Source: Mytilus galloprovincialis
Lineage: Eukaryota > Mollusca > Bivalvia > Mytilida > Mytilidae
Length of the DNA stretch: 64,000 nucleotides
Assembly (NCBI RefSeq): GCF_965363235.1
Contig: NC_134844.1
Coordinates: forward strand, 88,064,664-88,128,663
Direction: 5' to 3'
Under the pieces are notes generated by a model that was given only the letters and a program-made list of their open reading frames with translations, was not told where the DNA came from and searched no databases. A program made the position numbers and the translations under genes. Numbering within the stretch: the first letter of the stretch is position 1; each line of letters opens with the position of its first letter. Positions 3,851-37,329 of the stretch are shown here, in pieces.

Positions 3851-4151
3851 TTTACTGTGTTAAAAAAACTTCGACTTAAACCATGAAAACTTAAACGTTG
3901 GACATGAAATGATTTGTCGATGAAGAAAATTAAATTATGTCACTTCTGAAATAAGTTTGTCGATAACGTAACTTATTCTGACGGTAAAACAATGCGAATT
4001 TGATCACTACTCTGTTACGGGCTGTACCTCATGAATATCTAAAACCAATTATTGAAAACATCACAGAATGTGGCATAGGAAATACACAGTTCATATATTG
4101 AATTTATATTGAGTATTATCTTTAAATACCAAAGTCTTCTTTTTTATTCAG

Positions 4152-7759: not shown

Positions 7760-8230
7760 TTACAAATCTGTTGTTTCAGTAGGATCGTTGATATGTGTAT
7801 CCGACTCTGTGCTATTATATTTAGCAAATGTATCTACTTCCTCAGCCTCAATAGTACCAGATATTTTGTCAACTTGTTTACTGTACACATTGACTTTCTC
7901 ATTGTCTTCAAATTCCATCGATTTAATAGGTTGTAACTCATTTGTATTTACAGATTGTTCCTGGATAATTGTATTTTCTTTCTTTTGAAATTCAATTGAT
8001 TCTCCTGTCTTCGACTTGTTTGTTTTTGATGTTTTGCCTGATTTACTCTTTTTCTTTTTCTTTTTTCTAGATGTAAGAGCTTCATTCTCCATGGATGGTT
8101 CCAATATATGTTTCTCAATTTCAATTTTTATTTCCTTTGTGTTGTCAACAGCTTTAACATCTAAGTGTACTTCTTTGGAATCTTTCTTTAATCTCAAGCC
8201 ATCGTATACAATCATAATCACGCAGCACAT
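7760..8230 (-). CDS. Copy A exon 20: end of the last helix, cytoplasmic tail and stop
   Basis: Residues 800-955. The exon begins right after a TTTCAG acceptor with MCCVIMIVYDGLRLKK, which completes the last helix; by analogy with exons 6 and 13 the first Met is internal and not a start. The remainder is hydrophilic and probably disordered, with a lysine run (RKKKKKKSKSGK, near residue 855) followed by a Glu/Asp/Thr-rich stretch. The T-rich plus strand near 8050 is the complement of the lysine run. The tail is the fastest-changing part between copies A and B, though EFQKKENTIIQE and LQPIKSME keep clear counterparts in B. No known domain was recognised. Confidence 0.8.
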   Translation of the reverse strand: MCCVIMIVYDGLRLKKDSKEVHLDVKAVDNTKEIKIEIEKHILEPSMENEALTSRKKKKKKSKSGKTSKTNKSKTGESIEFQKKENTIIQEQSVNTNELQPIKSMEFEDNEKVNVYSKQVDKISGTIEAEEVDTFAKYNSTESDTHINDPTETTDL

Positions 8231-11200
8231 CTGAAATCAGGGTACTAATATTTTAAAACTGAGACATTGAGGTAAACATTTATTTTAAATAACTTCTTTA
8301 AATTGTTTATGAATCAGCAAAAATTGGTACACAATGCATACATAAAATATGCTTTTATTTAACTTATTCATTCTAAAAATAACAAATCATTCAAAATCAA
8401 AACGTAGATGACTTACTACAAATATAATACCTGAATAATCAGCAATGTGCATTATATGTGACAGCAGCTGAACAACAAAACATGTAAAAAACAAGTATGT
8501 ATAACATAATTTATAATAAGCATGATTTGTTCTCTCGGTATACTATTTAACATGGTTTTCGTAAGATCAGCGGTTGCATATGTGAAAGAATGTTTCTATA
8601 GTATTAAAAACGGAATGTACTTCCATTTATAAGTAATCATGCTGTTTATTGAATAAAAGTAAAACTGCAAATTAAACTTCTAAATGGATGTATGTGTGTC
8701 TATACATGTATATGCGTTTATGCTGTGTCATTTTCTATCCGGTTTGTTTCTTTCAGACTTTACGCAGATTATAGTCTCGAACGGTTATATTGATTTAAAC
8801 AACTTCTTCAAAAAATTTAATTACAACATGGTTTGTTAAAAAGAACATCAGTGCTGTTAGCAAATTCCATATTTTATTCAAATACGTAAGGACATAGCAG
8901 ACTTTGATTTCTTTTTCTTTTTTTTTTAAGTTTGAATGTTGTTTTGTTTCAAATTATCTAACATACCTCAGCTAAAATGTTAAGAGACATGAATACAAAG
9001 AAGATAATGCTGTATGTCTTTAGTCGTTTTTCAACTGCATCATCACACGACTATAAAACAATATTCTCATACCAATTAGTCATGTAATCACAATATCATT
9101 ATAAGCGATTACGCATTGTTTGGTTGTCTTACACATATAACAATGAATGTTTTTGTATAAATTGATACATTATTGTTTTCCATAATATTTTCCGTTTTGT
9201 GTTTGTGTTTTTTCTGCTAAAAAGTGCATTGATTATATAGACCTGAGTGTTAACTGGGTATAATTTCCTTTTTAGCCGTTTTTTTTTTTGGATTAGACTT
9301 CTATATCTTACAAACTGTTAGTTTATAACCATAAATTTCATTTGCAACTTAGCGCCTTCACAATATTTCAATATATGTATCAAAATAATTCGTGTAAAAA
9401 CAATTCAAAGTATGATTAGGCTTATAACTACTCAGATTTTACCAGTGTTAACGTTAAATTAAATACAAAAACTTAAACAAATGAATATTTAGAAAAAATA
9501 AGATAATATACTGCAAAGGCAATTTGTTCTCAGGAGTATAACACCTTAGTGTTTAAAATACTTTTATCAACAGCAATTTACAGAAAATCAATTAATAAAA
9601 AGTCATGTGTATGTGTTGTTTTTTGTTGAGAATAATTATCCATTTTGTACATTCATTTGTATTATTTAAAAGTGCAACTAACAAATATTAAATGAAGACA
9701 ATTCAATTGAATATTTAAGGATGCATCATTAATGGCAAATGATACAGTTGCAGGATAGGTATGACATTGCTAACGGAAATTTTTTTTTTTCGCGACGTTA
9801 AAAATATAACTTTTCGGGAAAAGATGCAGTTTTCGACTAATTTTTATAATTCAAACTGATTAAACTTGAAAACGAGTTCATGGGCCCATTTTTTAAAGTG
9901 ACATTTGGTTTGACAACGTATTAATATTATCTACACAGATTTACTTGAATAAGTCATTTTTTTTTAATTTGATAAATATACAGCAAAAACTCACGTTATT
10001 TTTCTACGTTCATGAACATAAGTTATCTATGAGTTATTTGTAAAAAAAAAAATGTTCAAATGTATAGAACATTTATATAAAAACGAAATTACAACTCATT
10101 TAACAAAAAACAGCTTGTGTTTATTGTTTAAAACAACAAAGTTATGCATTGCTGTCGAAATAAAACAAATACGCTACAAATTCAAATTATGAGGAAATAT
10201 CTGATATTTTAACCTCAATTTATGCAAAAAGTAGCACATGATGGATATATTTGTTAAAACATATTTGATTTAATCAGGTCGAAAATAGCCTTTATGCAAA
10301 TTGTCATCAAAATGTCAATATGGGATGAAACTGTATCGTATGCCCTTACCAAAAGTATTAATACTATATCAATGCTAATAGATGTAACTTACTCACCTGT
10401 GTGTTAAAGTACCCGTCTAGCATAGAATTTGTGCAATTACTATCATATCTGTCAGCATAAGGGAAGACATCTGATTGGGATTTACAACATTGTACTGGTA
10501 TTCGATGACCTGATCTGTCGCTAGATGTGTACCAATAGGTAGAGGTAAATGACGATTCTATCAATGAGCCTACTCCACAACATTCTGCCTGCAAGTCCAA
10601 AGTTCAATCAGAATATCATTGAAAGTACATGTACTTTAATCTTATATTTTGGTATGAATGTATTTCCGTACAAAATATTTTCAGAGTACATTTTGAAACA
10701 GTCTAGCATAATTATTCACTCGAAAACTATTGATAGCTACTCATATAATTAAATTATCAAACTAAACCTATTTGCCTCCCTTCTCTGTGGTGTAGTCGTG
10801 CCTACTTTTTTGTATAACCCAGAGCGATTCCTCTTTTTAATTGAAACAACAAAATTTAACATATCAAGGCCTATAAATAATGGTTTATTCGGGTGTTTCC
10901 TATCTAGCCCACGAAAATTGATCATACCTGCACAAACAGCGTATTCCATGCGAGCGATATTGACCAATCATATGTTGCTGAGTGGTGAGAGTAATAATAA
11001 CCACCATAATAGCTCACAAATAGTGTTCTTAGTTCATTTGCTAACTCTGAGGAAACCTTTAAGTATATCAGAACAGTATCTTAATTCTAAAACTTCATAA
11101 ATTAGCAAAGAACCCTCTTCCTTGTGTTCTATTACAAGTATTTGTATACATCCTTATAAAATAACCAACACTTGTTTATTGGTGGGGTTTGTTATCAGTT

Positions 11201-14200
11201 TTGATTGTCCCTTTGGTATCTCCCTCATTAACAAATTGAGAAAATGCAATGAAACGCCTGTGAGTTGAGAAAAGAACAATTTAGTTGGTCAAATACGTTC
11301 TTCAGGTGTCCATATCACTTCAAAGAAGTTTTCGTTATATCTATAAGTTAAAATTTACATATTATATGTTTGATTTGTTGCAAACAATAATGAAATATAA
11401 ACACTTGCAAAGAGTATCAAATGGTGAAGTTGAAATCACCCCTTCGTTTACGGACGCCATCACGAGTTGGTTGACCGTTTAAATCCGTTTCACAGATGAT
11501 TTCAAATATGTTGCTTATATCGTTACTACCATCCCGTTTATACGAATGTGTCCTACCGGAAACCGTTGTTTACTGATTGTGTGATCACATGAGCAACACG
11601 ATTGTTGCCATACATGGAACAGAATCTGCCTATCCATTCGGATCATATGAGATCCGCCCCTCCCATCCCAAGTTTTTGGTTGGGTTTGTGACGCTTAGTA
11701 TATATGTTTCTAAGTTAAATTGTATGTCTTGTGTACTATTATTTGTCTGTTCGTCTTTGTTTTTTTAGTCCTTGGGTGAACCATCCGCCTTGTGGTCAGT
11801 ATGTTTGTACTGCTATCAGTAAAATGTTATTCTAAATATGTTAAAAAACCTCAAAATATAAATCATTTTATTTATGAAACTAGAATCATAAATTCCAGTT
11901 TCATGTGTAATACCTTTCCCCTTTTCACTTCATTTGATATTAATGCTAACGTCACGTTCTTAGATATAGGAAGAAGTGTTATGAGTGCCAACAAGTCTCC
12001 ATCCAAATCACAATTAATAAAAATAAACCATTATAGATCGTCAAAGAACGGTCTTTAACACGGAGCCTAGACTCACATCGATCAGCAAGCTATCAAGAGC
12101 CCCACAAATTAGTATTGTTAACCATTCAAACAGGAAAACTAACGGTATAGTCTATATAATAACCGAGTAGCGTGAAACACATATGAACCACATAAACAGA
12201 CGACAATCACTGAACATCAGATTCCTGACTTAGGACATGTGCAAACAATTGAAGCGGGATTAAACGTTTTAATGGTACTAAATATTCACTCTTTTCTGAA
12301 ACGTAAGTATAACATCACAACACAAATGTCTTATAAAACATCGTTAGATTAATTTTTTTTACGTGTTTACAAACAAAATAAGAAATATTGAATAGTGTAC
12401 ATTTCAATTTAATTGAAATTAATCTTAATTTGAATCTGTATAAAATTGCAAAATAGAGTACAGGTAATTGAGTTAGGTCATTTGACGTATCATTATATTT
12501 AAACGTATTGTGTGTCGAATTTTATTTGGAACATACTTAGTAAAGTAAATCAAAGGTGATTGCGTATCTATTGATACATAAATAATATAATTGGTAAACT
12601 TACTTCTGCCACGAATTTTCCCCACACTCCTGTTTGCACAATATTCGCAACTAACACAGAACACAATAATCCAGCAGCCTGCAAAACAATTAAAGTTAAT
12701 AATTTAAGAATAAGAAGTAAACACATCTAAAAAAGTTCCATATAAATGAGATGTTCATGTAATGCTTCTCCATACCAAAACCATTGACATACCACTATTA
12801 GTCCCCGTCAAATTGACCATATTTCTAACTGATACATGTAAAGTGTCACTTGTCAGAACCATTAGACCATGACTGTGGATGCGGGGTTGGATGTTGTACT
12901 AATACTTATGCAACTGATTACGGGATATAATTTACCTAGTACAATTGGATCTTCTAAGATTAAACATATACAACACAAAAACATGTAACGACAGCAAATG
13001 TTTCAAATTCAATATGTAATTATTTAAGGTGGAAGGACCAAATCACCGCCATTGAAATTATATAAGCTAATACGTATACCATGTGTACAGCTGCATACAA
13101 AATATCAATAACAAACAACTAGTACTTTCTATTATACCGACATAATCTAAAGCTAGTACATTGTTGAAGGCGACGCCGATACCGGAAACAGCACAGCTCT
13201 GCCAAAGCGAAGCTATGAGACGTGTCTTTTTAATCCATATATGAAGAAATTGCTAAATTGAATTAGATCACACGACAGAACTGCTTGAACACAAACATGG
13301 TTTAGTGTACGGAGTAAGTTTTAACCGATTATATGGATAAGTGCTAATTAATGACTGGTATTTTTTTTTTATTTGTTTAACAGCAGATAACATCAATTCA
13401 TCAGAACTTCAGCTTTCTCTGAACGTTGTAGTACATGTTATTGTTATGTCCCCATATGAATGATAGACCACCGATTAAAAAGTACATGGATTAAGTCTAT
13501 CATTTGTCTATGAGACGTTATCACGAAAACATATTATCGTATTGCGTTCATAAATAAAATATCGTAATAAATTCTTACCACAAAATGCAGAACGGATTTC
13601 CATTTCGATAGGATCATAAAAACGATGGATAATATCACAACTGCTATAGATACAGACGAAAAGGCGACAGTCACAATGAAAAATATGTTGATGGCTCTTG
13701 AGAAGGTGTGATTGGTAATATTTATCCTTGAGAATATGTCTCGTATATCCGAGTTTCCAAATACTTTGTCGTATCTTATGTTGATGGCTAGGCAAAGCAG
13801 CACTAGGTTGCATATCTGTGAAATTCAACAATTCGTTATTTACTGTCCAGTATATTGTGCACAACTAAAATAAATTTTGGATAAAGCATGAGGGGTGTGA
13901 TACCCTTATTAAACAATCTCTTTATGCAAAGTTTATTAAAATATCTGAAATGTTTGTATTTGTGTCTTTTTCTTTCGTTTTTCCGATGTATCTCTATATC
14001 AACTCGAAGGTTTTATGTTTTAAAGTATTAGTTGGTTCCCTTATTTATACAAAAAATAGTAAGGATTCAACTCCAATATCCTAGGATTAAACCAGCGAAC
14101 AAAACCTGATTCGTTAGAAACCCATTGTAGATTTTATTTTCCTGCTTTCAGTGTCGAAAAAAGAATTTTAACGGCATATTCAAGTTTCATCTAAATGTTG

Positions 14201-17200
14201 TCTCATGATTGATTTATCAATCCTCAATAACTGATGTGGTGATCAAATTTTGTAACTTGTAGTGTACTGTGTTGTCTAAACGCTGCTATACTTAATACAT
14301 TGTATATTTAACTCTTCTATTCTACATCTTACAAAGATGTACAAATGAAGCAGTCAGATACCTCAATGAGACAAAAATCAAACAAATATGCTTTAGAAAG
14401 TATAATGTTCACACAGCGTGATTAAATACAATATACTCACAAAAATAGTTCCTAAACATATTAAGCACCCCAAGCTTATTTTAGACCTATAATGCAAGCA
14501 AAGTATGAATTTATGAACAGGTTAAATTCATATTTGTTTGAACATGTTTTGTTTGTTGGTGCTGCTAATTTTTCTTTCTTGTTTTATCTTGATATTTGAC
14601 CGTTGGTTTTCATGTTTAAATTGTTTAACACTTGTCACTTTTGGGATCCTTATAACTTGTTTGAGAGTTGTCTTTTTTGCACTTCTTCATATTTATACTC
14701 ATGTCTATCGTCTTCCAAATGTATAGATAAACTTTCCTTGTCTTGATGGGATATGTTTTAAGTTATCTAACCGTAGAATCCTGAGTACAACAGATGATTA
14801 ATACGCTTCATACGTCATCACGCATGAACAAATGTAATGTTTATATGCTACTGAGATATCGTGGCAGCAAATCGTCTTGCAATGTTCTCGGTGCGTAAAT
14901 CACTCGACCACCTAGGCTCTTAAAAACAATAAAGCCTCCGGTGGTCGGGTGTTACCTTTTCTCGTCAGATTTAACCTAGCATCGTAATACAGTACATGAT
15001 ATATAAGACATAATTATGGAATTGTTACAGATCAGCTGAATTATCTATTTCAAAACATCCGACAAATTAATGTTTTCTATTTTAAGTACGTCAGAACCAG
15101 TGACGACTCAACAGATGTTTACCATCGGATCACCAGTGATGGTGATACAAGACTAAAAACACATTATGTATATATATAATTCGTCTTAATAACAGCCCAA
15201 CAATGTTAGACCTGTAAATTTGCGTTAGCGATATTTATTTATATAAATATATATATATATATGTATTGTTTTTTCATACGTACCTTTTCCAGTTACTCGA
15301 AAAGAAAGATTTGATGCCTCTGAAAACTGTTCTGAATATTACAGACTTTGTATACATTTCTTCTCCTGTTGACTTGTCGGTTGTTTTCGTTGTCATTTTG
15401 TCTGAATACTCCTTGTTAGCAAACAGGATTCCAATAATCTAAGGCAAATAAAGTTATACAAGATTTCGTAATATAAGTCATTAAATATGGATGATGTTAG
15501 CACAGGAACGAATTATTTTCATTACAGTTGCCAATCGCATGAGTAAAGATTTATGATAAAAATAATTAGTTGTCTTCAAGTATTATTTAACACGTATTAT
15601 TACTAGAATGGAAATATAAAGGCATTATATATTAAAAAAACTCTATCTTACTGCATTGAATAATAAACTTAAGAGCAAAAACATAATTATAAATACCTGA
15701 TGGATATATATATAATTCTAATTTGACGTGCTTCTTTAGCTTTGTTAACAACACTGTGATAAAATTTTCGATAACATATACTTAGCGAAGACTCAGAGAT
15801 ATACATAATAATGGCTGTTACAATATAAATCCCACGTAAATTTACATGTATTGGAACCTATTTGCAGACCCTTTGCCGATTTTATTGTTTTAAAAAGAGC
15901 AATTAAAAAAAGACAACATAACTTTTATTCTTATTCGTATGCATAATAAAAGAAGAAATGCACAAGAGCTCGGAGAAATCAACAAAATAAAAATTAAATG
16001 AAATTCCGCGAAAGTCTATTAATCTTTTTGGCGCATTTAAGTCATTTCAAAACATGACGTCATACAAATGAAACCGCTAAAGTTGGAAGTTTTCTGTTAC
16101 GTGAACCATCGGAATTCCTTTGATATTGAATTAAAACTGATTTTTGAGGTAGGTTTTGTTTTATTTTCTATTCTATTGCATTATTCGCATATTTACTCAT
16201 TTCAGCAAGTCAACATAGCGGCTCCTAAGTTAAAAAATGTCAACTTTGGATTTGACGGAAGCTTACGAGAAAAACATGTTAATTAAAAATGACAAACGTT
16301 GGGTTTGAGAATTTAAAGAATTAAAACGTTTTTGTTCTATCAGTTATTCGCGAAATAACCTACGCAAGCTACACATTTATAAAGATATTTGAGCTTTATC
16401 TAACAGGGAGTAAAAAAGAACAGCCACACACACAGCATACCCACCCTCACTTCAGTTTTTTAATGACCGTATTTGTCCTATTAGAATCGAAATAATATAG
16501 AAGCCATAGATTGTTGGAAATTAACACATGGCATGGGCCGTGATATTCGTTAATTTTATCCCTCGCTAACGCTCAGGATAAGATTCGAATACCACGGCCC
16601 AGTCCATGTGTAAATTTCCTACAAACTATTGCTTCCATGAATTATTTCTTAAATTGACAAATGCAATATCTTAGTTCGATTTGAGCATGATTTTGAAAAT
16701 CATTTCTGTACTTACAATCTATCTATTGATATCGTTTGAGAGGACAACAAAATAATCTATACAAATTATAACACTTTTAACCCGTTTACCTCTAAATTAA
16801 TTTGAAGTAATACAATCGCAAGAAACCACCCAACAAACATCTTAGTCTTAAACATGATCACGTCTGCACATGTCTGAAAAAGAAATATTAAATATGTTTT
16901 AAACGTTCAGTTATCATTTAGTGGAATTATCGCTCAGTTTTAGATGTAATTGTGATTTTATTAGCTCGTATACATGAGTATGCTTTTTTAACTGATACTT
17001 CTATGTCCATACCCTTAGTACCTTTTAAACTTTGTACATTCTACAGGCTTTGGTCTAGCATTTGTGTCCAAATGTTATATCTAATTGATAAGGTACTGTC
17101 CACTTTTAGCTTGATCATTTACCTGTAAGCTCGCCGCACGGGTCGAGTATCACGTTTCTTAATAAACTGAGTACTCATAATCAGTTATCATTTTCATGAG

Positions 17201-20200
17201 TAAAGGTGGTGTCAGCTTTATCATTTGGTCAAAGTTTAGGTTACAAAATGGCGTGGACGCACTCACTGGTTTTCAGCAGTAAGATTTCATTTTTTTTTTT
17301 ATTTATTTGTGCTGAAATGTTCAATCTTCAGCAACAACACACATTATTTATTTTTATTTTCGTTGTAATTTTAGATTCCGATATGATAATTTTATAGATG
17401 AAAAGATGAAATATATTGATAGTATAGAACGGTTATACGTGTTCACCTATGATAAATATTCAATGGTCGAAACAGTTTCGTATGTTATGCATGTCTGCTT
17501 ACGGTTATCAAGATGATACAATCTTGTTTGTATCTGCATACGTATGAAAAGGAATATGCAAACTATAAACATAAAGGTATAGCTGTATAGTGTTTGTAGT
17601 AATTGCATAATTGCAATATACCACTTGGTCAAGTATGTGACATGCAAAGATACATTATTCAATTACTAAATAATTTATAATAAAAAGCATAGTTTAATGT
17701 GCCGTAATCTTCTTTAGCTCAAACACAAGGTATTGAGACATAAGAAGTCGTTCTATTTATCCATAATTATTTATGTAACATGTGTATTGAATGTATATTC
17801 ATTGGTCCTAGCCAAAGAGCTGATAAGTATGCATTTTCCCGGTTAATTTTTTCATCATTCTTTTTCCAATTAAACTCATCATAGATACCAGGACTAAATT
17901 TTGTATAAACACCAGACGCGCGTTTCGTCTAAAAAAAGACTCATCAGTGACGCTCGAATCCAAAAACGTTAAAAAGGCCAAATAAAGTACGAGGTTGAAG
18001 AGCATTGAGGACCAAAATTCCTAAACGTTTTGCCAAAAGGTAATCTATGTCTGAGGTTAAAAAAAAACGTAGTATTTCAAAAATTCTAATTTTTGTTATC
18101 AGTTAATTTATATATATAACCATATCAATGACAATTCAACCTATATACTTTGTGATTTGATGTTAGCTGTTTCATAAATATGGTTTTGATAGAAGTCTTA
18201 TATTTATGCTCATATAAAAGAGGGACGAAAGATACCAAAGAGACAGTCAAACTCATAAATCTAAAATAAACTGACAACGCCATGGCTAAAAATGAAAAAA
18301 GAAAAACAGAAAAACAATAGTACACATGACACAACATAGAAAACTAAAGAACAAACAACACGAACCCCACCAAAAACTAGGGGTGATCTCAGGTGCTCCG
18401 GAAGGGTAAGCAGATCCTGCTCCACATGTGGCACCCGTAATGAAGTATATAACTGTTTTCATTTTAGTTTGACAGGCTTACTAGTATTGAATATTATCAC
18501 TTATTTGCACTTTGCTATTAAAGTTGAAGCTAACAAATATTAAAACATAGATGCAGTACTAAGTGCTGATAAGGGCTGTTAATTGTATTCCAGTTGAAAA
18601 CCTTGTAACAAACCAGTTTAAAAAAAAAACATACAAGATTTTTGAGTTGAGCGTTAATGTTTAAAACATAGACAAAGGTCTCGGTGAACATGTGAAATCC
18701 ACAACTTAATGTGAAAGAAAGATTGAAGTCAAGCTTAAGGTACGTACAACTCATACTTTTGAACCCCTGCAGAAACTAGGGGTGATATCAAGTGCTCCGG
18801 AAGGATAAGCAGATTCAGCTCCACACATGGTACCCGTCGTGTTGCTTATGTTAAGAAAATCCGGTAAATAGTCCAATTCGGTAAGTCACATTCATTTGAA
18901 ACTTACATCTGTTTTGTACCCGCCACATCCACCAAAATAATCAAATAACCCATAGTAGGAATTTGTATTAGGATCTTCATTGTCTAGTATTCTGGGATGA
19001 GCGTTTTTACAACAAAACTTTATTCCCTGAGTCGTATGTGTTTCAGAATAATAGTTGACACCACAGCACTGCAGCTGAAATCATCAAAAACAATAAGCAT
19101 TAAGAATAATATCAACCTTTTCTACCTTTTATCGGTTTCTTTTGACTCTACATTTTGTAGGAAATAGGATGAATATGATGCTTTTATGATTACTTTAACG
19201 TTCTTGGTACTCAACAACATCTATCATTTCATTTTCACGTCTCGTCAAATGTGTTCAAATAGGTATTTGATTTAGTTTTCTATTAATTTTTAGAACCTTT
19301 AAATGTATCTTTAACATGACATAGAAATCGTTCTTATGCAAATGACAATTACTACAGATTATTTCGGGTTAAAAAAGTTAAATATACAAGTCTGTAATTG
19401 TGTGAAAATTGAGCAGATACTAGAATCCTACACCTCAGTCAAAATTTCAACTTTTATTTCGTAGTTGAATGTTCAAAAATCAACCAAGTCTTTTACTTGT
19501 ACATTTATACGTGCACTTGCATTAGGTCGATTTCTATTCGAAGCAGCTCCTGTCTTATGCTCGAGTTTCTTTTTTCTTTCTTTCTTTTTATACCATAATG
19601 TAATTAAACATTTTTCCTTTCTTTATTTTGCAAATTATCAGCATGTTGTTATTTACTTTGCTTAAAATTAACTTGTGAAAGACATGTATGATACTTTAAA
19701 AAAATATTTGTATGATTAATTATGATAATGTGCAAGTATGTCTTACAGTCATTATCATGTTGTTCCAATGTCCAGTAATTCTATTTCCATTGCCTCCATA
19801 AAAATAACCTAATTGTTGTAACCATAACTGAAATTTCATACCATTGTTGATCTAGAAATAAAAGTTGAGTTTGATTTGAACGACATTTGAAAACAGGATA
19901 TACAATCGTCATTTTGAACTGTTTTTTCTATCGGTTTAACGCTTGTCAATATCGTAAGATAATTTTAATTATGTTAATTTGACCAATGATCATCCCATAA
20001 CAGTTTGTGTTTCAAGTTTAAGAAGAGATATGTCAAAAAGTGAAATGAAAATTATTTTTCGTCGATATTTTTTTCATTTGAAGGTTGAGATAAACACCAA
20101 AATAGGCCAAAATAATTCAGATGTGAAAAATGATCAATCCTCGTCAAAACTGACCATAAACAGATATATATCTATTCTTCAAAGGTTCATTTTGGTCGTG

Positions 20201-23200
20201 TTTTGATAGCTAAAAGTGCTTGTCGTTTAAATATCTAACTTGGGTGCAATCAGATATAGAGTTAGTGTGTTGGTACTTATATTATTTATAACATACCCTT
20301 TTCAAAGTGTGCATTAAATTGTTTACAAGTTATTAAGAAACTCAGTTTTCAACTCTCTTTGGATATATAACGATTTAGAGACATACTCTTTTCCATTGAT
20401 TTGTTTCTTATGTCTTCTGGCTTTCAAATATTTTGCTATGAACATTACTGATTTGGACGCATACAATTAATGAAGAATGAATTTCTATTTTTTACAACTT
20501 TTTTATGAATTTCAACAACATCTTGTTCTAAGAAAGCAGGGTTTGACTATCCAAATGTTCAATACTCTTTTGTTTACCGTGTGGGGGGATTGGTTTTCGA
20601 TTGATAGTTAAAACTTTGTTTTACTGAACAATGAATGATAATTGTTTAGATTTGAAATAATATGCTCACCTCTGCAATAAAAACTATCCATAATACAACT
20701 GTAATAAGTCTTGGTATATGCAAAGCAAGGGACAGAACAGAGCTCTGAAAGTGTGTTATTGTGATTATTTCAAATAAGTAAATATTCTTATATTAATGTA
20801 TAATAAAGAAAAGATATATTTTTACGTAAATGCAGAGGATTTATATTATTATGGTTGTATAAGGAGAAACATCCTTGCGAGTGGATCTCCACCATTAAAC
20901 TTTTATCAGAATAGGACATACACCATTATAAAACTTGCACGACAACATCAAGTTCGATTAAAGAGAGATGTAAATAAAAATATTAAACTAAGTCTAACAA
21001 ACACATTGAACCAATTACTTCGTGTTCATGTGCAAAAGACGTAATCCTGTTTAGTCTATCTATTCTTTTCTTCTTTTTTTTTCGCTGAAACGCAAACAAA
21101 AAGTACAGATTGTTGTTATTCCGATCATGTTACCATTTACAAACGAGGTTTTGAACTGTTTTAACTTTTTTTCGTCGATTCTATTTAAATCAAAATTAAA
21201 GTTATAATATACAAAGCATGAAATGTTTGTAAACTTGACATTTTCTATCACCTTTTTTGGATTTTTAGTATTTGACATATTTGTAAATGGTATAAAAAAA
21301 ATGTATTCTCGTTAATTAAAACAATCTTTATCGGTCTTTTGTAGGTATATTCATGTGTTTATCAAAGTTATATACCGTTATAAGAAAGCGCTCCGAATTT
21401 CTCCAAGATCCAACTAAACCAAGAACTGCCACCAATAAAGTACACATTCCAATAACAATCGATGCTGCAGGTAGACCCACCAATATATCATAGAAATAGT
21501 AATGGTAAAACTGAATCTTGTAAAATATATGTTTCAGCGAGCCATCAGTAATGAATACGTCTCCTATTAAAGTCAATCCGAGGACAAGAAGTCCAAGACC
21601 TGCTACCTAAAACAAATTTACTATGTAGTGATATTATTGACTGAGTTTATTATTAAACTGGAATTTTTCATTTCATTTATCTCTGTTATTATGTATTGCA
21701 GCTTAAAGTTTGTCTACTCATGTGTTATCTTTAAACAATTAATTCTAATCTGAATTCTTTACTGTCTTAATAATTATCTCAAGAAACAATTTTAATTTTG
21801 TAATGAACATATTTGCCAAGTAAAATATACAGTTTGTACTACAAATGTTTTAATTCTAAACACATAGAAAGATGAATTCAAAATACTACATAACACATGT
21901 GTAACATGATAAATATTCTATGAGCAATGATGAGTGTTGAAGATTGTGGTTACGTAGTTTGTTGCTTATTAACATAATTATATATAATGTTAATCACTAC
22001 AACTACTTACCAATGAGCTTATTTTTAGCATGACCGACGCAAATATAATTTTTGACCTATAATGAGAGAAGTTAACATAAAAATAAACGTTTGACTGAAA
22101 TTAATTTTCATCTTATATTTATATACAAAACACAAATATTCAAAGTCGTATTTCGTACAATGATTGTCAGCTTAAAAAGTAACAATATTTTTTCAACATT
22201 TCAGCATGTTTATTGTTTTCATGAATAAGAAATAAAACTTCTTTTTTGTGTGCAAATATTTTCCAGAAAATAAAACAATATCATGATTGAGAAAAACAAA
22301 AATGACTGAGGTATTACACTCTTATTTGCGAAATAAAGAGTAAGAACTCTTGATAACATCATGTATATCTTTACAAACAAAACAATTATAAGATACTGAA
22401 AGTAAACGGGCTATTGCTTAATTTCACCTGTTCCACTTTTGCTTTATGGAGATAATCCAACTTCGAAATATTCCATGGTTCAAACTCAGCAATAAAAAAT
22501 ACTTATTCTCTGAAATGCTGGTTTTCTTTTCTTTAAATTCAAGTTTACGAAATATGTACTCAGCTGCAACTATTGAACATATCTGAAAAAGTGATATAAC
22601 ATTAGTTTATTTATATCTAATACAATAAGTTCATTTCTTACATCGTTAATATCTTGTCTTTCAATTTCATAGGTAGCATATTATTTAAACTTCATAAAAA
22701 AGTCTAAATAGGTAAGTAAAAACCATTATAATGATGAAAAAAATATCATAAAAGTTAAGAACGATATTTTGACTTTGCCTAAGGATTCCTTAAAAAGTCT
22801 TACAAATAGATCTATAATTGAAAGAAAGGTTGGACTAAAATAGAATTTCATAAAATCTAATTGGTATAATAATCAACATTACAGTAAATATAATGCGACA
22901 TTCTGTCTGTTGATGCAAAACAAATCTTTGTATCTACGTAGGAACTTTTTAAAGGTTTTAAGTTATTTGTTTGAACGACAATAGGCTCAAAATGGTAATA
23001 CAATTCAAATTTACATGTTTATAAAGACTTTTGTCCAAATTTGTTCCATACTTAAGCTATGGGAAAAGAGATGTTTTAAGAATGTTTTATTGAGAAGAAA
23101 CAATGTTTAACAATAAAATATGAAGTGGTTAACAAGAAAATGTAAGAAGGAAGACATAGAAAGAAAAGAGGAATGAAAAATACCAGAGTCAAACTGTGAA

Positions 23201-26200
23201 TGTTAAAAAAACAAAAAGACGACAACAAATTTTAACAAAAAATCCACAAAGGAAATGTGCAAATACCTGACATATAATACAAGTCACAATTATTCCAAGA
23301 TATATTTCCAAGTAGCTGCCTAATTCCTGTACATATAAACTCCAGCAGTGATATCTTTCAGGGTTGGTATTTTGACATCCAAGCTACAAAATCAAGGATT
23401 TTGATGTAACATTTGATTTGATTTAAAATTATTGATGATTTTCAGCTCATACTGTTAAAATGAATTCAAATGAGACAACTATTTACAAATAGTTGGTAGT
23501 AAGTAAATAAAAAACAACTGGACTGCTTTCCATAATGTGAAAAAAAACATAACCAAATAGTCGGAAACGACAGGCACCGACATTAAAAAGATATAAAAAA
23601 ATATTCAATTTAACAACTAAAGGCCTAATTTAGAACAAATCAATTTACAAAATACATAAAAGACCGACATGGGCTAGTGAAAAGCAGTGAACATAATCTC
23701 CTGACTTGGTAAATAAAGGCAACAGAAGTTTACCGATGTTCAAAACTCATAAATCGATAGAAATAAACAAATCCGAGTAACAAACCAAAACCGAGGGAAA
23801 CACATTAAATATAAGAGGAAAATGACGACACAACATTAAGATGTGACACGCACAGAAACGAACTAAGCATTAGACAAAATCCGATGAGAGTAACAAATAT
23901 AAAATCAAAACTAAATACATGAATTTGGTATGGAAAATTGCCGTGGCACGTCTTATAATAATGGGAACTCACCCTCAGATATAATAGGAAACAAACGACA
24001 CAAAAAAAACAACGTCAAAATGTGACACACAGAGAAACGAACTATAATATAACAATGACCATATTCCTGTCTTGGTACAGGACATTTTTCAAAGAAATAA
24101 AAAGAAAAATGATGGGTTGAACCTGGTTTTGTGGCATACCAAACCTCCCGCTTTAATGGTCATGTTAAATATAACATTAAAATGACAACACAACATTACA
24201 GGACTACAATCAAAATAAATAGAACATATTTGTAAGGCATATATAATGAATGGTGTGGGGTTAAACATGTTTTGAGCACTCAAACCTTCCCCTAACACTT
24301 ATCAGTTAAAAAGGCTTTACTCATCAGATGGATACAACGCAAATCACATCAAAAAGTAGAACTACAAAAATACCAAACTCCGAGGAAAATTTAAACGCAA
24401 AGTCCCTAATCAAATGATGAAACACATCAAACGAATGGACATCCACTGTCATATTCCTGACTTGGAACAGGCATTTCTAAGTGTAGAAAATGGTGGATTG
24501 AACCTGGTTATAAAGCGCTAAACCTCTCACTTTTATGACAGTCGCATCAAATTCCGTTGTAGTTACAACAATGCGTGAACAAACCAGACAAAGTAGGAAA
24601 AATAGTACAAATATGGGCACAGCAGTCATCAATGTGTAACAATCTCAAAACAAACAAATATTTAACAAAAAAAGCACAAAAAGTATCTATCAAATTTTAA
24701 AAAAGATGTTTCGCGTCTTTGACGTCAGAAAATGTAAACGCGACGTAGGAAGACATTTTGTCGTTCACAGTATGACAAATAAAAAAATGACAATTTCAGA
24801 TGGAAATTTTTTTTTCAGAAACAGACAAAGATTTAAAATTATCCAGAAGTTTTTTAGAATTCATAAGAATGCGTATCATTAATATATCTGAAAGTGAAAA
24901 CAAATAATCTGAGTTTTTTTATCCTGTTGTTTTTGACAAGTGTCTCAGGGAACTCACATTCGTATGGTAAAAGAGAAGAGGTCAGCAAGGAGAGGCACAC
25001 AGTTCGTTCCCATAGGAATGCCAACAATTTGTTGAAAAAGTCTACCTCCAAATTCTGCAAATACATTATCGATAAGAAACTTAAGCAACCTGATCAGTGT
25101 GTTTTTTTGTATAGTATAAAAGTGCCACCTAACATCCACGTATTCAAACGTCAATCCAAATTCCGATAGCAAATAATCTTATTCGGTATAATTGATATTT
25201 GTGCAAAACATGATTTTCGTAACACAAAAATCAGCTATTTATTTTTTTGTGGGTGCAAATGTTGTTTAATTTTCCGGTTTATTTATAAAAAAAAACACCT
25301 TTCAGTGTATGAAAATTTAATGAAGGTATTTTATCAACCACAATGGCGGTGTTTAAATATCCCAATTGCTTACCTTTTGCATGAACTCAGGAAATGTTTT
25401 CACTCGGTTCCAGTATGATATGTGTTGATAACCATATAAAGTATACTGATATGCTGTTGTGTAATTGAGTAATGTGTAGTAGAGGTCCGTTTTCTGTTGA
25501 TTAAAATGATTAAAAAATCAATTTTATTTAAATCGATATTAGTTGCATATGTCTTTTTTGTGAATGAACTAGATATATGCAAGGAAACAATACAAATGTA
25601 AATACATATCAAATTGATGATAACCTTATTTAAACATTCTAGAATAATAAAAAAAATCCTTGAGCCTTTGGGTTACCTTGAAATCAGTGACAAAAAACTA
25701 AAGGTACATGTCTGTGCATGTCATCAAAAGTAATTTATCATTATTTAATGATGTGATTTAGATTGAACTTATATATGTTTCTGATTATTTTTTTACTATT
25801 AGTTGTGTAGAACTCATATTCCTGTGTGCAAAAGCAAATATTACTTTTTTCAATATTCTAACTGTTGCCTTTCCGACCTCATTTCTTTTTTAAATACTTT
25901 TCAAAATGCATAGCTTACCTTGTGATAAATTACAGACAGGAGTACTATATATATAATGTATACACAAATCAGAAAGGAACTCAAGACGACGGCCTAAAAA
26001 TACAAAAACACTTGTGTATATACAAATCGAAATATCTATTTCATGCACTATATTTAAAGCATCAATACCTTATAACTGAATAAAAAGGAATGGGGGTCGT
26101 CTAAATTCGATAAAGCATAAAATTGAGAAAGGAAATGGTGAATATGTCAAAGCGACAACCACCCGACCACAGAGCAAACAACAGCCGAAGGCAACCAATG

Positions 26201-29200: not shown

Positions 29201-32029
29201 CGCTTTAATGATGAAATTGAGAAAGGAAATGGGGAGTGTGTCAAAGCGACGACAATGTTTAATATAACATTAAGATGACTACATAACATGACAGGACTAC
29301 AATACAAACAAATGGGAGAACATAAAAAACAGAGAAATACACGAATAATAGCTAACAAAAGGTACCAGGTTTACAATTCAATACGTCAGACGTGCGTTTC
29401 GTCCACAAAGACAAACCAATGACTCTCAGATGAAAAAAGTTCAAAAGCTAAAACAAGTACAAAGTTAAAGAGCACTGAGGACCAAAAGTTCCAAAAAGCT
29501 GTGCCCAATAGGGCTAGGGTTTTCTGCCTGGAATAAGAACATCCTTATTGTTTGAAATAATTAATACTTTTGCAAAATGTAGAGGGACGAAAGATACCAA
29601 AAGGACAGTCAAACTCATAAATCGAAATTAATATAGTAAATATACATGATAAAACCGAAGTGTTGACTTACTACAGAATAAACATGTACACGGATACATT
29701 ACATAAACAACCTAATTCATCACAAAACAATACACACCCGAGTAAGCCTAAGACTAAGCCTCAACGCACAAAGTGTCGTCACATTTGAAATTCTAAAAAA
29801 GCACACAAGATGACGTCACATTTGAATTTCTAAAAATATTTCCTAAAAATAAAATATCATTAGGATTGATTTAAGAATAGATTTGTTATACTGATATTAC
29901 ATTTAATAACAATAACAATGAAAAATAAAATACTTAGGTCTTCAATGCAGTGAAAAGTGCCCGCACCCGGAGGCGTCCTTCAGCTGGCCTCTAAACAAAC
30001 ATATGTACTAGTTAAGTGATAACAGATGTCATATTTAACTCCAAAGTTTACACAAGAAACTTAAATTAAACAGAGGCTCCTGACTTGGGCCAGGCGCAAA
30101 AATATAATGTTTGACCTAAGCATTATATCAACACATGCATTTTTTGCAGGCCACATGTTTTTTCGCTTTTTGCAACGGCTTTGAAACTTTGGATAACATT
30201 GATTGATTTTTGGTTGCTAAACGCCGCATTACTTTGGATTAGAATAAGTCCCGTTATTCGTATCTTCTAATGGTGATACATTTACTTGCATCTTTAAAGA
30301 TCTTTAACTCAAGTCAAATATATGCAGTTCGTGCTAATTAGAAAAAGAGTTTAGAAATTAATTTTATGATAGTTTTAAGGTAACCATAGTAGAAATATAA
30401 AAAAAAAGTTGAAAAGATGTGGTATGTTTGCCGATGACACAATTCTGTACTAAAGAACACATGTTGTAGAGTATATTATGTTTTTTTTACTTACCACTGC
30501 TAACAATCGCTTTTTCCTTCCCAAAGCTCCACACATTCCAAAAATGCCTGTTATTAGTTCTAAAACAAATACTCCTATGAGAGAAAATATAATTGATTTA
30601 ACGGTTGATCCTAGTGGCATGCCGGCTATAACCTCCATGTCAACAACTTTGATAACTTCTTCATCTAAGATGTCGTCTTTAACTTTAATGTATATTGATA
30701 TGAATATGAAACCAAAGGTCAGTGTCTGAAATGAATAAGTTATATAGACTTAAGTTTTGTTTGAAGAATCGTAAAAGAATTTTATAAGCATACTGTAGAC
30801 TGATTTCCTCGAACAAAACCTGTTCGTGTTATTTACTTGCCACAATCTACGCAAAATGTTTAATTTGAGAAACAGGACATTATAAACCCAATCATATTAG
30901 CTAGTATTATTACGACATCTTTGAACTGCGGTATCATCGGTTGTTAACCTTAAACATAATGTGTTTACACTGTTGTTTTTCCTGTTGTTTGTCATTTTCT
31001 TCTTTGCTCTTCTCCCTTTTCAAACAAAATAGTATGTTTATTCTAATTGAAAACAGCAACTACACACATATATTGAAAAAAAGATAATATTAAGGTAGAA
31101 TCAAAACAATTAAATGGATAAAAAGGTTAGATATTGGCCAAGATTGACTTGTAGTGTCTTTCATTTTATTCAAGGCATTATTTCTGAAATAGAATACTGT
31201 TAAAAAAAAGCGTCATGATTCATTGTTAACAGCACAAAGATCCAAAATTAGACAACATAGATTCACATCATTTTGAAAACAAGTGAGATGACAGGAGACA
31301 TCATATCAATGATAAACCGAAAAATAAATAAGATGAACAAATGAAAGTTCTTAAGGTGGTACCTAACACTACAGGGAGATAACTCTGTAAAATCAGCTTA
31401 ACTTTTCAATTACGTCATGTTGTTGAGGGAATATTAAGCTTCTTAGTGATCAAAATTAATGTTGGTCAAACTGCAATATAACCAGTGTAATATTTCGAAT
31501 CAAATGGTTGGTTCAAATTTGGGGACATTTTTATATATTTGTCCTAGGGTCAAAGTTAATACTTTTTCAAAATTTTATGAAAATTAAACGAGCCAAATCA
31601 ATTTTAGTGAAGGTGTTAGGTACCACACTATGATTTTAGAGGTCAGAAGATGTCGTACATGGTATACTTCAAATCAACAGAGACCAAATGAAGTGGACCA
31701 AAAATATGTGACCACACGTGCTTTTACAACTACATGTACCTTCATCAAATACATTAAACTTCTTTTAAACATGTTAAAGGAATATAAGGTATACTTGTAC
31801 AAGTTTCTAAAAAAAAACATTCTGTTAGTAAACACATCATTATTAAATATCCTGTTTTTGTTTTTTTTTCTCCCTTACTTGGTTTGGTTTATGGCAATGA
31901 ATTAAAAAAAATAGTACAGTCTACAAAGTATAATAGTAAGTAGAATTTATAACTTACCCTTGTGATTAAGGAAACGGTCAGAATAATATTAGCTGAAATA
32001 GTCATACGACTTCTATCTATTTTCGCCAT
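7760..32029 (-). CDS. Triple-tetraspanin membrane protein, copy A (20 exons, 955 aa)
   Basis: Predicted integral membrane protein of three consecutive tetraspanin-like units, presumably a membrane scaffold; its partners are unknown. Coding exons in transcript order: 31958-32029, 30495-30725, 25919-25993, 25374-25493, 23267-23383, 22428-22582, 22011-22056, 21376-21606, 20670-20744, 19747-19851, 18907-19074, 16790-16873, 15284-15438, 14441-14486, 13579-13815, 12604-12678, 10928-11056, 10397-10588, 8967-9050, 7760-8230. All borders are GT/AG and the frame stays open for 2868 nt including the stop. Every junction is phase 0 except exons 6/7 and 13/14 (phase 2). The start is the ATG at 32027-32029 (MAKIDRSRM), conserved in copy B. 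Tetraspanin hallmarks are a CGA loop after TM2 of unit 1 (residues 89-91) and CCG in the large loops of units 2 (412-414) and 3 (710-712). Separate genes are unlikely, because exons 7 and 14 start in mid-codon and have no start codon. Transcript support is lacking here. Confidence 0.85.
8967..14486 (-). CDS. Copy A unit 3: exons 14-19, third tetraspanin-like unit
   Basis: Residues 545-799, exons of 46, 237, 75, 129, 192 and 84 nt, the same order as in unit 2. TM1 is split between exons 14 and 15. The first loop in exon 15 carries two N-glycosylation sequons (NIT, NHT). TM2 follows and ends in a basic KWKSVL segment instead of CGA. Exon 16 is TM3 (ends NIVQTGVWGKFVAE). The large loop in exons 17-18 has AECCGVGSLIE, then PVQCCKSQ and SNCTNS; with SCDDA at the start of exon 19 that makes six cysteines. 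Exon 19 is TM4 (YSIIFFVFMSLNILAE). Exon 15 matches copy B at 63 of 79 residues by my count. Confidence 0.84.
11380..11780 (+). mobile_element. 5'-truncated Penelope-like 3' fragment
   Basis: The first part translates to VKLKSPLRL, similar to the C-terminal region of the copy at 35140-37325. It runs into the repeat tail GCAACACGATTG...CGGATCATATGAGATCCGCCCC...TTTTTGGTTGGGTTTGTG, a diverged version of the tail seen there. Oriented opposite to gene A, in its intron 16. Broken and short. Confidence 0.5.
11975..12180 (-). repeat. SINE-like dispersed repeat copy, minus orientation
   Basis: The reverse complement shows the family order: a head near the phrase AACCATTCAAACAGGAAAAC, the AACCATTATAG segment, and the end represented by GAGTGCCAACAAG. 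It lies in intron 16 of gene A and is diverged. Confidence 0.5.
15225..15264. repeat. AT-rich microsatellite
   Basis: Run of TATTTATTTATATAAATATA followed by about ten AT dinucleotides, in intron 13 of gene A just downstream of the exon 13 donor. Confidence 0.8.
15284..22056 (-). CDS. Copy A unit 2: exons 7-13, second tetraspanin-like unit plus linker
   Basis: Residues 257-544, exons of 46, 231, 75, 105, 168, 84 and 155 nt. TM1 is split between exons 7 and 8 (SKIIFASVMLKISSL, then VAGLGLLVLGLTLIG). TM2 lies in exon 8 and is followed by GLVGSWRNSERFL, where the usual cysteines are missing. Exon 9 is TM3 (ends TVVLWIVFIAE). Exons 10 and 11 form the large loop with LQCCGVNYYSE, then KFCCKN and GGCGGY; exon 12 adds TCADV, making six cysteines, as in six-cysteine tetraspanin loops. 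Exon 12 is most of TM4 (MFVGWFLAIVLLQ). Exon 13 finishes the helix and carries a linker ending in SSNWK. Exon 11 matches copy B at 48 of 56 residues by my count. Confidence 0.85.
16494..16640. mobile_element. Palindromic (foldback) MITE-like element
   Basis: Two arms of about 60 bases in inverted order: GGAAATTAACACATGG...GGGCCGTGATATTCG on the left, and CGAATACCACGGCCC...CCATGTGTAAATTTCC on the right, around a short loop (CCCTCGCTAACGCTCAGG). A diverged half copy (GAATATCACTGGCCAGGCC, ATGAGTAAATTTCC) occurs at about 53235-53310 in a different intron of gene B. A shared outer segment (TTTCAAAACATGACGTCATAC near 16045; similar near 53165) suggests a larger parent element. Located in intron 12 of gene A. 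Confidence 0.65.
17881..18045 (+). repeat. Dispersed repeat of the GCGTTTCGTC family
   Basis: Ordered words GGTACCAGGATTATAAT, CAGACGCGCGTTTCGTC, AGACTCATCAGTGACGCTC, AGTTGAAGAGCATTGAGGA and AAATACGGCTAAGGTAA define the family. This copy has most of them. Others: 29362-29550, 34098-34505, 43910-44075, 44643-44945, 54063-54260, 63555-63690 on the plus strand and 40810-40965 on the minus strand; a trace is at 59020-59120. Its class is unknown to me. Confidence 0.65.
18215..18445 (-). mobile_element. Penelope-like 3' tail, 5'-truncated copy
   Basis: Plus-strand words GGGACGAAAGATACCAAAG, GACAACGCCATGGCTAAAAA, ACGAACCCCACCAAAAACTA and GGTGCTCCGGAAGGGTAAGC match 35144-35400, where the same sequence is joined to Penelope-like coding sequence. 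A second partial copy of the end follows at 18765-18895 (GGTGCTCCGGAAGGATAAGC, CCGGTAAATAGTCCAATTCG), just before exon 11 of gene A. Confidence 0.55.
22428..32029 (-). CDS. Copy A unit 1: exons 1-6, first tetraspanin-like unit plus linker
   Basis: Residues 1-256. Exon 1 (72 nt) and the start of exon 2 form TM1 (about 13-37). Exon 2 (231 nt) also holds a short acidic first loop (KVKDDILDEE) and TM2 (about 66-88), followed by GMCGALGRKKRLL, close to the usual tetraspanin CGA loop. Exon 3 (75 nt) is TM3 (AVVLSSFLICVYIIYIVLLS). Exons 4 and 5 (120 and 117 nt) give a small second loop with only two cysteines (169 and 179, in LGCQN and HCW) and no CCG. TM4 spans exons 5/6. The rest of exon 6 (155 nt) is a basic linker ending in KWN, with the split Arg codon shared with exon 7. 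An alternative donor at 22497-22502 (GTATTT) would give an 80-nt exon 6 that also stays in phase. The 155-nt form is preferred because it matches exon 13 in length and in its NW-K-R-S-K ending. Confidence 0.82.
23540..24640. repeat. Cluster of truncated dispersed repeats in intron 4 of gene A
   Basis: Several related blocks follow each other with the words GAGGGAAACACATTAAATAT, CAGAGAAACGAACTATAA, CTTGGTACAGGACATTTTT, TTGAACCTGGTTTTGTGGC and CTCCGAGGAAAATTTAAACG. The same blocks recur at 28920-29360, and the last one at 51865-51975. They resemble retroelement tails inserted in head-to-tail order. No gene is visible. Confidence 0.5.
24845..25172 (-). mobile_element. Penelope-like reverse transcriptase fragment in intron 4 of gene A
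   Basis: The minus strand encodes VGIPMGTNC and PLLADLF, the reverse transcriptase box seen as IGIPMGTNCAPLIADLFL in the 26758-28830 copy, preceded by LLKFLIDNVFAEFGG (LEFLLDNIFVRFGD there). Only about 100 codons remain, both ends are missing and the frame is broken. An old fragment. Confidence 0.65.
26120..28830 (-). mobile_element. Penelope-like retroelement, nearly full coding region, with 3' tail
   Basis: Endonuclease-lacking or truncated Penelope-like element in intron 2 of gene A, same strand as the gene. The N-terminal part (about 28200-28830) has CNCSNSEYTYGP, HVITGDLNIV, LSKGPKYRPP and FVPADKAANN; the larger part (26758-28065) has WLPKLHKKPY, DFSTLYTTLP, IGIPMGTNCAPLIADLFL, FRYLDDILAL and FLDLDI, in the order usual for Penelope-like reverse transcriptases. 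No GIY-YIG endonuclease is visible after the C-terminus. The sequence from 26757 to 26120 appears to be its 3' tail, because the same words recur elsewhere as truncated repeats. The coding region has about one break, so the copy looks fairly young but not intact. Confidence 0.8.
28855..29360. repeat. Stacked truncated repeats beside the Penelope-like element
   Basis: The blocks GAAATGGGGAATGTGTCAAAG, GGGAAACGCATCAAATATAA, CACAGAAACGAACTATAAAG, GACTTGGTACAGGACATTTT and TTGAACCTGGTTTTGTGGC repeat material found at 23540-24640 and 26120-26270. The short open frames here have no known domain. Confidence 0.5.
29362..29550 (+). repeat. GCGTTTCGTC-family repeat copy
   Basis: Has GGTACCAGG, CAGACGTGCGTTTCGTC, AGAGCACTGAGGACC and GCTAGGGTTTTC, in family order but diverged. 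Followed at 29580 by the AGGGACGAAAGATACC word of the Penelope-like tail. Confidence 0.55.
29930..30110 (-). repeat. Truncated Penelope-like 3' tail in intron 2 of gene A
   Basis: Contains GCCCGCACCCGGAGGCGTCC, TTCAGCTGGCC and GGCTCCTGACTTGGGCCAGG, the same words and order as 26200-26370 next to the Penelope-like coding region. A further short piece of this tail is at 43130-43215. Confidence 0.55.
31356..31626. mobile_element. 271-bp MITE with 15-bp terminal inverted repeats
   Basis: The left end GTGGTACCTAACACT and the right end AGTGTTAGGTACCAC-like (GGTGTTAGGTACCAC) are inverted copies. No open frame. Located in intron 1 of gene A, about 330 bases downstream of exon 1. The target duplication is not clear. 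Confidence 0.7.
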
Positions 32030-37325: not shown

Positions 37326-37329
37326 ACAT

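Follow-up and report, generated by a model that had tools for sequence, protein, structure and literature searches.

The window analysed here, a stretch of 64,000 nucleotides (nt) of Mytilus galloprovincialis DNA (RefSeq assembly GCF_965363235.1, contig NC_134844.1, positions 88,064,664 to 88,128,663 of the forward strand), holds two minus-strand genes, copy A and copy B, each of which is predicted to encode three tetraspanin units in one chain.

Gene structure

Copy A consists of 20 GT-AG exons (32029..7760), with the ATG at 32029 and the stop ending at 7760. The joined exons comprise 2868 nt including the stop and encode 955 residues without internal stops. An initial annotation had joined twenty minus-strand exons in one frame into a protein of 955 residues, and this chain could be rebuilt from the DNA at the same coordinates and with the same length. 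Comparison of translated pieces of the window exposed a second complete copy, B, which was absent from that annotation. It lies on the same strand (63785..42219) and has 20 exons with phases identical to those of copy A, encoding 942 residues with no stops. Over the aligned positions, the two proteins are 74% identical, with 80% identity for unit 1, 81% for unit 2 and 77% for unit 3 without its tail.

Exons 1 to 6 encode unit 1, exons 7 to 13 unit 2 and exons 14 to 20 unit 3 (Table 1). Exon sizes recur across the units of copy A (231, 231 and 237 nt, then three times 75 nt), and in units 2 and 3 an 84-nt exon precedes the final exon of the unit. The last exon spans 153–156 codons in the two copies.

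Reading frame across the unit joints

Among the 38 introns of the two genes, 34 are in phase 0 and four in phase 2, the latter all exactly at the unit joints. Units 2 and 3 contain six phase-0 introns each and unit 1 contains five, in both copies. Because phase-2 introns occur only at the joints, exons 7 and 14 can, within the exon set, be joined in frame only to exon 6 or 13. Exons 7 to 13 form a module of 864 nt in copy A and 843 nt in copy B with phase 2 at both ends, which can therefore be removed without a frameshift.

Reading upstream from exons 7 and 14, a stop is met before any ATG in both copies. The sole in-frame ATG within these exons lies inside exon 7 of copy A and corresponds to ATA in copy B. 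The joint introns were also scanned for hidden first exons, i.e. an ATG followed by an open frame and a phase-2 donor. Donors following a GTRAG rule were considered and, since the genes' own joint donors do not fit this rule, also those scoring at least 4.9 bits. With GTRAG donors, no candidate was found in intron 6 or 13 of copy A nor in intron 13 of copy B, and three were found in intron 6 of copy B. The looser rule yielded 0 and 1 candidates (introns 6 and 13 of copy A), 3 (intron 13 of copy B) and 5 (intron 6 of copy B), compared to shuffle means of 0.3, 0.8, 0.6 and 3.1, respectively. In none of the four joint introns does the count go beyond the highest of 100 shuffles, and no candidate in copy A resembles any in copy B.

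One coding sequence is indicated by intron phase, by the lack of start codons at the joints and by the second copy. Judged from the sequence, a single reading frame of three units is very likely and clearly preferable to any other reading, and it is highly probable that each gene is one three-unit coding sequence.

Conservation between the copies and selection

A nucleotide comparison of both loci gave 35 matches, consisting of 20 collinear blocks (one per exon) and 15 non-collinear matches that were taken for dispersed repeats. Some of the exon blocks extend slightly into the introns. Upstream of exon 1, conservation continues for 125 bp beyond the ATG (to 32154 in copy A), as expected for a leader or promoter. 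Upstream of exons 7 and 14, it covers only 2 and 18 bp, respectively, and 2–65 bp upstream of the other internal exons.

Introns were compared between the copies after trimming 12 and 25 bases at their ends, using at most 2500 bases per intron and 20 shuffles in two-base blocks. For 14 of the 19 pairs, the score does not exceed the highest of the 20 shuffles, and the joint introns 6 and 13, in which any concealed promoter and first exon would need to be located, are within the shuffle range. Introns 7, 11 and 15 are above the shuffle maximum by one or two points. Introns 12 and 14 clearly exceed the shuffles with stretches adjoining their donors. Near the start of intron 14, about 69 nt are kept between the copies (about 14360-14428 in copy A and 48404-48472 in copy B; score 44, shuffle maximum 31), and near the start of intron 12 about 59 nt (about 16712-16770 and 50301-50359; score 42, shuffle maximum 32). 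These conserved stretches might be splicing signals.

Nonsynonymous (dN) and synonymous (dS) substitutions were estimated with our own Nei-Gojobori-type count, which gives values without confidence limits. Overall, copies A and B differ by a dS of 0.64 and a dN of 0.14, with a dN/dS of 0.22. Units 1, 2 and 3 have ratios of 0.159, 0.199 and 0.191, respectively, and exon 20 reaches 0.396, the tail thereby having about twice the ratio of the units. For the exons flanking the joints, the ratio is 0.104 (exons 6 and 7) and 0.288 (exons 13 and 14). Purifying selection is therefore shown for each of the three units as well as over the two joints. Since the 20 exons are collinear conserved blocks under purifying selection, the exon chain is not a product of chance; since most introns are unalike, the copies are not haplotype duplicates. 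On the basis of these comparisons, copies A and B are diverged paralogues under purifying selection and neither pseudogenes nor haplotype duplicates.

Tetraspanin identity of the units

Membrane spans were judged by Kyte-Doolittle hydropathy peaks. At a threshold of 1.6, 12 peaks were found in each copy, four per unit, and at a looser threshold of 1.2 there were 13 and 14. The large loops of copy A, measured between 19-residue cores, are 73, 108 and 132 residues long, within the range of 69–132 given in the available text of PMC2650405. Its small loops of 35, 27 and 32 residues compare to 13–31 in the same text, two of them being slightly over. Two linkers of about 50–60 residues separate the hydropathy cores of successive units, and the charged tail has about 150 residues. 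Amphipathicity is not a general property of the linkers: the best 18-mer has a mu of 0.66 in exon 13 of copy A and 0.36–0.41 in the other three linkers, the 95% point of random sequences being 0.39.

Searching the full proteins with the tetraspanin profile PF00335 identified three stretches in each at an expect value (E) of up to 1, with a position given for the best one, which lies in unit 2. When the units were searched separately, E was 0.0026 and 6e-13 for units 1 and 2 of copy A, with no match for unit 3, and 9.6e-5, 1e-14 and 4e-9 for units 1, 2 and 3 of copy B. Three units out of six, namely both unit 2 sequences and the unit 3 sequence of copy B, pass the curated cut-off of PF00335. 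The unit 1 match is partial and below this cut-off in both copies (17.9 and 22.6 bits compared to 32.1). The initial annotation had named a lack of profile similarity in two of the three units as one outcome contradicting it; similarity was found for units 1 and 2 of copy A and for all three units of copy B. In NCBIfam, units 2 and 3 of copy B had no match.

The large loop contains six cysteines in each of units 2 and 3 (counted in copy A), in the order CC-CC-C-C in both copies. Of the three complete sets of four transmembrane segments (TM1 to TM4) and a large loop that had been annotated, the four spans per unit hold, while the loop of unit 1 is reduced and its Pfam match partial; likewise, the annotated CCG motifs are present in units 2 and 3 and absent from unit 1. 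Unit 1 is a reduced tetraspanin.

As described in the available text of PMC2650405, tetraspanins are proteins of 200–300 residues with four spans, their nine ancestral introns are all in phase 0, and the CD63-like group has introns 1 to 6 all in phase 0 and a CC-CC-C-C large loop. Units 2 and 3 resemble these CD63-like (CD63L) tetraspanins in their four spans, their six phase-0 introns (compared by number and phase) and their CC-CC-C-C loop. Unlike them, the genes described here place three units in one chain of 942–955 residues by means of phase-2 introns, outside the size of 200–300 residues given there. The whole gene is a multi-unit derivative and no ordinary tetraspanin.

A PDB search was performed with unit 2 of copy A and units 3 and 1 of copy B. 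The nearest solved structure to unit 2 of copy A is CD53 (E 0.00033, with uroplakin-1b, UPK1B, at 0.11), and the nearest to unit 3 of copy B is UPK1B (E 0.0063). Unit 1 of copy B gave no credible match (one, at E 4). The similarity to CD53 and uroplakin-1b is weak and distant. According to the available text of PMC1190194, the conserved membrane residues of tetraspanins are an Asn in TM1 and a Glu or Gln in TM3 and in TM4. In TM3 of unit 2, an Arg (unit residue 105 in copy A, encoded by exon 9) stands where CD53 has Glu, and the same is seen in copy B. This Arg alters the charge in the membrane core and might pair with another unit.

Weighing of alternative explanations

Several observations weigh against a single chain of three tetraspanins. 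A splice-site weight matrix was built from the 34 non-joint sites of the two genes themselves, which are few in number and related. On this scale, the joint donors are weak (5.6, 7.5, 6.5 and 7.8 bits compared to 4.9–12.5 elsewhere, with only 4 to 7 of the 34 being lower), and within the copy A locus 1.7–4.6% of all GT dinucleotides score as high. The joint acceptors are middling bar one, with 5.7, 5.4, 13.0 and 7.0 bits compared to 1.0–13.5 for the others. AATAAA occurs in all four joint introns, once in each of copy A and five and three times in those of copy B, and is absent from the 1000 bp past copy A's own stop. Readthrough past the joint donor leads to an immediate stop in three of the four cases and to a stop after two codons in the fourth, so that truncated products of one or two units may occur. 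At the protein level, unit 3 of copy A alone gives no PF00335 match, whether its tail is included or removed, the large loop of unit 1 has two cysteines and no CCG, and the positive-inside bias is slight (25 Lys and Arg inside and 19 outside). Units 1 and 3 gave no relation in a profile comparison (probability 0.6, E 0.1), so their likeness is unconvincing, and tblastn of the six units on the window returned five cross-unit matches at E 0.14–0.88. The stop after the donor is weak evidence, because a phase-2 AG/GTRA donor itself creates one. Polyadenylation hexamers were set aside as uninformative, AATAAA being common in AT-rich DNA.

Each copy might instead represent three adjacent single tetraspanin genes, each with its own four-span protein, which merely look joined. 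The exon set of each unit does resemble a single gene, and the AATAAA in introns 6 and 13 of both copies, the stops at once or two codons beyond the donors and the fact that the joint donors are weaker than most would fit this. However, units 2 and 3 would then have no start, as exons 7 and 14 are in phase 2 after their acceptors with no in-frame ATG upstream; the hidden first exons are within the shuffle range with unlike candidates in A and B, and the 2 and 18 bp conserved 5' of exons 7 and 14 contrast with the 125 bp at exon 1. Separate genes are considered very unlikely. One gene with regulated isoforms, i.e. intronic polyadenylation after exon 6 or 13, or skipping of exons 7 to 13, beside the full form, is an unlikely explanation. 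Intronic polyadenylation would give one- or two-unit proteins, with stops and AATAAA following exons 6 and 13, and skipping of the symmetric module would leave a two-unit protein in frame. The conservation seen where introns 12 and 14 begin would fit splicing regulators, which can be conserved. However, AATAAA is frequent in any AT-rich DNA, and constraint is similar in all three units. That the locus is decayed or misassembled, with a chance exon chain or a pseudogene, is hardly credible. The region does hold dispersed repeats, a minisatellite and open reading frames (ORFs) resembling reverse-transcriptase relics, but two copies at this dS and dN/dS have kept 20 exons, their phases and an open frame, and the intron pairs, 14 of 19 no more alike than shuffles, do not fit haplotype duplicates. 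The full explanation, two tandem genes that each encode one 12-span protein of three covalently joined tetraspanin units, is considered probable.

Relations among the units and origin

The units were compared as profiles of two rows each. Units 2 and 3 are well related (probability 92, E 7e-7) and units 1 and 2 weakly (probability 11, E 0.0028). Global alignments compared to 300 shuffles gave z scores in copies A and B of 6.1 and 5.3 for units 1 and 2, 9.6 and 8.0 for units 2 and 3, and 0.8 and 2.5 for units 1 and 3. Identity between different units is 26% over 90 columns (units 1 and 2) and 25% over 212 (units 2 and 3). Homology between the linkers, i.e. exons 6 and 7 compared to exons 13 and 14, was no more than suggestive (in each copy, the score was reached by 8 of 1000 shuffles) and was not used.

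The tblastn search of the six units yielded 92 matches on the window in total, seven of which lie outside exons, six of these with E 0.17–0.91. A unit 2 match at 53960-53832 (minus strand) in intron 8 of copy B has an E of 3.7e-8 at 25.6% identity, a value probably inflated through the sum statistics of BLAST by the neighbouring exons. Searches for relatives with units 2 and 1 in a collection of viral contigs and with units 2 and 3 in a collection of genome contigs gave 222, 283, 336 and 587 pattern matches, none confirmed by tblastn at E 1e-3, an absence that says little because these collections consist of viral and prokaryote sequence.

Because equivalent units are far more alike (77–81%) than different units, fusion would have come first and gene duplication second. 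From the sequences, the origin would be best explained by a fusion of neighbouring tetraspanin genes, which carried the usual phase-0 introns, and a later duplication of the entire gene. Two new phase-2 introns would have joined the neighbours, bypassing the upstream stop and the downstream start.

Feature coordinates and other features of the window

Table 1 Exons of copies A and B and inter-unit introns of copy A (TM, transmembrane segment; A/B block, nucleotide block matching between the copies)
Feature	Position	Strand	Description
Copy A exon 1	31958..32029	-	ATG start, unit 1 TM1 (first part); A/B block
Copy A exon 2	30495..30725	-	Unit 1 small loop and TM2
Copy A exon 3, 75 nt	25919..25993	-	Unit 1 TM3; dN/dS 0.034
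Copy A exon 4	25374..25493	-	Unit 1 large loop, first part
Copy A exon 5	23267..23383	-	Unit 1 large loop with 2 Cys, TM4
Copy A exon 6, 155 nt	22428..22582	-	Unit 1 TM4 end, linker 1-2; phase-2 end
Copy A intron 6, 371 bp	22057..22427	-	Phase-2 inter-unit intron; no conserved A/B stretches; one AATAAA at 22214
Copy A exon 7, 46 nt	22011..22056	-	Unit 2 TM1 start; phase-2 beginning
Copy A exon 8	21376..21606	-	Unit 2 TM1 end, small loop, TM2
Copy A exon 9, 75 nt	20670..20744	-	Unit 2 TM3
Copy A exon 10	19747..19851	-	Unit 2 large loop, first part
Copy A exon 11	18907..19074	-	Unit 2 large loop with CCG
Copy A exon 12, 84 nt	16790..16873	-	Last loop Cys, unit 2 TM4
Copy A exon 13, 155 nt	15284..15438	-	Unit 2 TM4 end, linker 2-3; phase-2 end
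Copy A intron 13, 797 bp	14487..15283	-	Phase-2 inter-unit intron; A/B conservation at exon edges only; one AATAAA at 15239
Copy A exon 14, 46 nt	14441..14486	-	Unit 3 TM1 start; phase-2 beginning
Copy A exon 15	13579..13815	-	Unit 3 TM1 end, small loop, TM2
Copy A exon 16, 75 nt	12604..12678	-	Unit 3 TM3
Copy A exon 17	10928..11056	-	Unit 3 large loop, first part
Copy A exon 18	10397..10588	-	Unit 3 large loop with CCG
Copy A exon 19, 84 nt	8967..9050	-	Last loop Cys, unit 3 TM4
Copy A exon 20	7760..8230	-	TM4 end, charged C-terminal tail, stop; dN/dS 0.396
Copy B exon 1	63714..63785	-	ATG; frame and A/B block
Copy B exon 2	61533..61763	-	Frame and A/B block
Copy B exon 3	61053..61127	-	Frame and A/B block
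Copy B exon 4	59993..60103	-	Frame and A/B block
Copy B exon 5	59583..59699	-	Frame and A/B block
Copy B exon 6	58352..58506	-	Linker 1-2; phase-2 end
Copy B exon 7	56062..56107	-	Phase-2 beginning; no in-frame ATG
Copy B exon 8	54852..55082	-	Frame and A/B block
Copy B exon 9	53753..53827	-	Frame and A/B block
Copy B exon 10	52560..52664	-	Frame and A/B block
Copy B exon 11	52008..52175	-	CCG; frame and A/B block
Copy B exon 12	50383..50466	-	Frame and A/B block
Copy B exon 13	49751..49884	-	Linker 2-3; phase-2 end
Copy B exon 14	48485..48530	-	Phase-2 beginning; no in-frame ATG
Copy B exon 15	47501..47737	-	Frame and A/B block
Copy B exon 16	46670..46744	-	Frame and A/B block
Copy B exon 17	45368..45496	-	Frame and A/B block
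Copy B exon 18	44426..44617	-	CCG; frame and A/B block
Copy B exon 19	43531..43614	-	Frame and A/B block
Copy B exon 20	42219..42680	-	Tail and stop

A minisatellite with a 39-bp unit in 33 copies (92% matches) occupies positions 56432-57721 inside intron 6 of copy B, and a 432-residue plus-strand ORF at the same positions is a by-product of it. Intron 2 of copy A contains two long ORFs (26758-28836, minus strand), with related pieces at 24957-25178 and 36901-37344. These ORFs presumably resemble a reverse-transcriptase element, a label unconfirmed by Pfam, in which three of the pieces gave nothing better than E 0.018 and nothing of that kind. A 173-residue ORF on the plus strand (4113-4634) has a hydrophobic start followed by polar sequence and gave nothing better than E 0.022 in Pfam; it may be an exon of another gene.

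Proposed architecture and role

All 20 exons would be joined into one mRNA. Both termini, the linkers and the tail are predicted to be cytosolic and the loops extracellular; because each unit has four spans, the linkers are on the same side as the termini and chaining keeps the topology. The product would be a row of three four-helix bundles, presenting two cysteine-rich loops and one reduced loop outside. Units 2 and 3 would present CD63-like six-cysteine loops, while unit 1, whose loop is reduced, might mainly provide structure or anchoring, and the charged tail, which evolves faster, might act as a cytosolic contact region under loose constraint. Such a covalent trimer would fix the stoichiometry. 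As a role, a preassembled tetraspanin cluster of fixed order is put forward tentatively.

In terms of how it would work, the product can be compared with CD9 homodimers and tetraspanin-enriched microdomains, in which several tetraspanins also assemble laterally; the contacts of the CD9 dimer map to TM1 and TM2 in the available text of PMC1190194. Unlike in the chains described here, no covalent link is needed there, whereas the linkers would tie the units in a fixed order. No natural multi-unit tetraspanin was named in the titles and abstract openings of the matches listed in a literature search, which covered few subscription papers, and such a gene may exist unnamed in databases. Within that scope, the search agrees with the initial annotation, whose author was aware of no described triple tetraspanin. 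The terms 'tandem tetraspanin', 'internal duplication' and 'fused tetraspanin' carry other meanings in the available text of PMC3970140, PMC2965184 and PMC11653091, and that of PMC8830517 merely cites CD9 and CD81 among fertilization proteins. The architecture is real and probably a new variant within the tetraspanin family.

It appears quite probable that this gene family encodes obligate covalent triple tetraspanins, with composition, order and 1:1:1 stoichiometry laid down in one ORF, and that loss or multiplication of the middle module keeps the frame. As this module begins and ends in phase 2, genes with two, four or more units are predicted among relatives.

Tetraspanins work by assembling next to one another in the membrane, and the numbers and kinds that come together are hard to measure. 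If the reading of a covalent triple is true, a natural triple of fixed order would offer a defined cluster for structural and functional work, and it would show that selection can favour a fixed composition. The joints would illustrate how single genes can be fused, with the ancestral phase-0 introns kept within the units and new phase-2 introns bridging the stop and the start between them.
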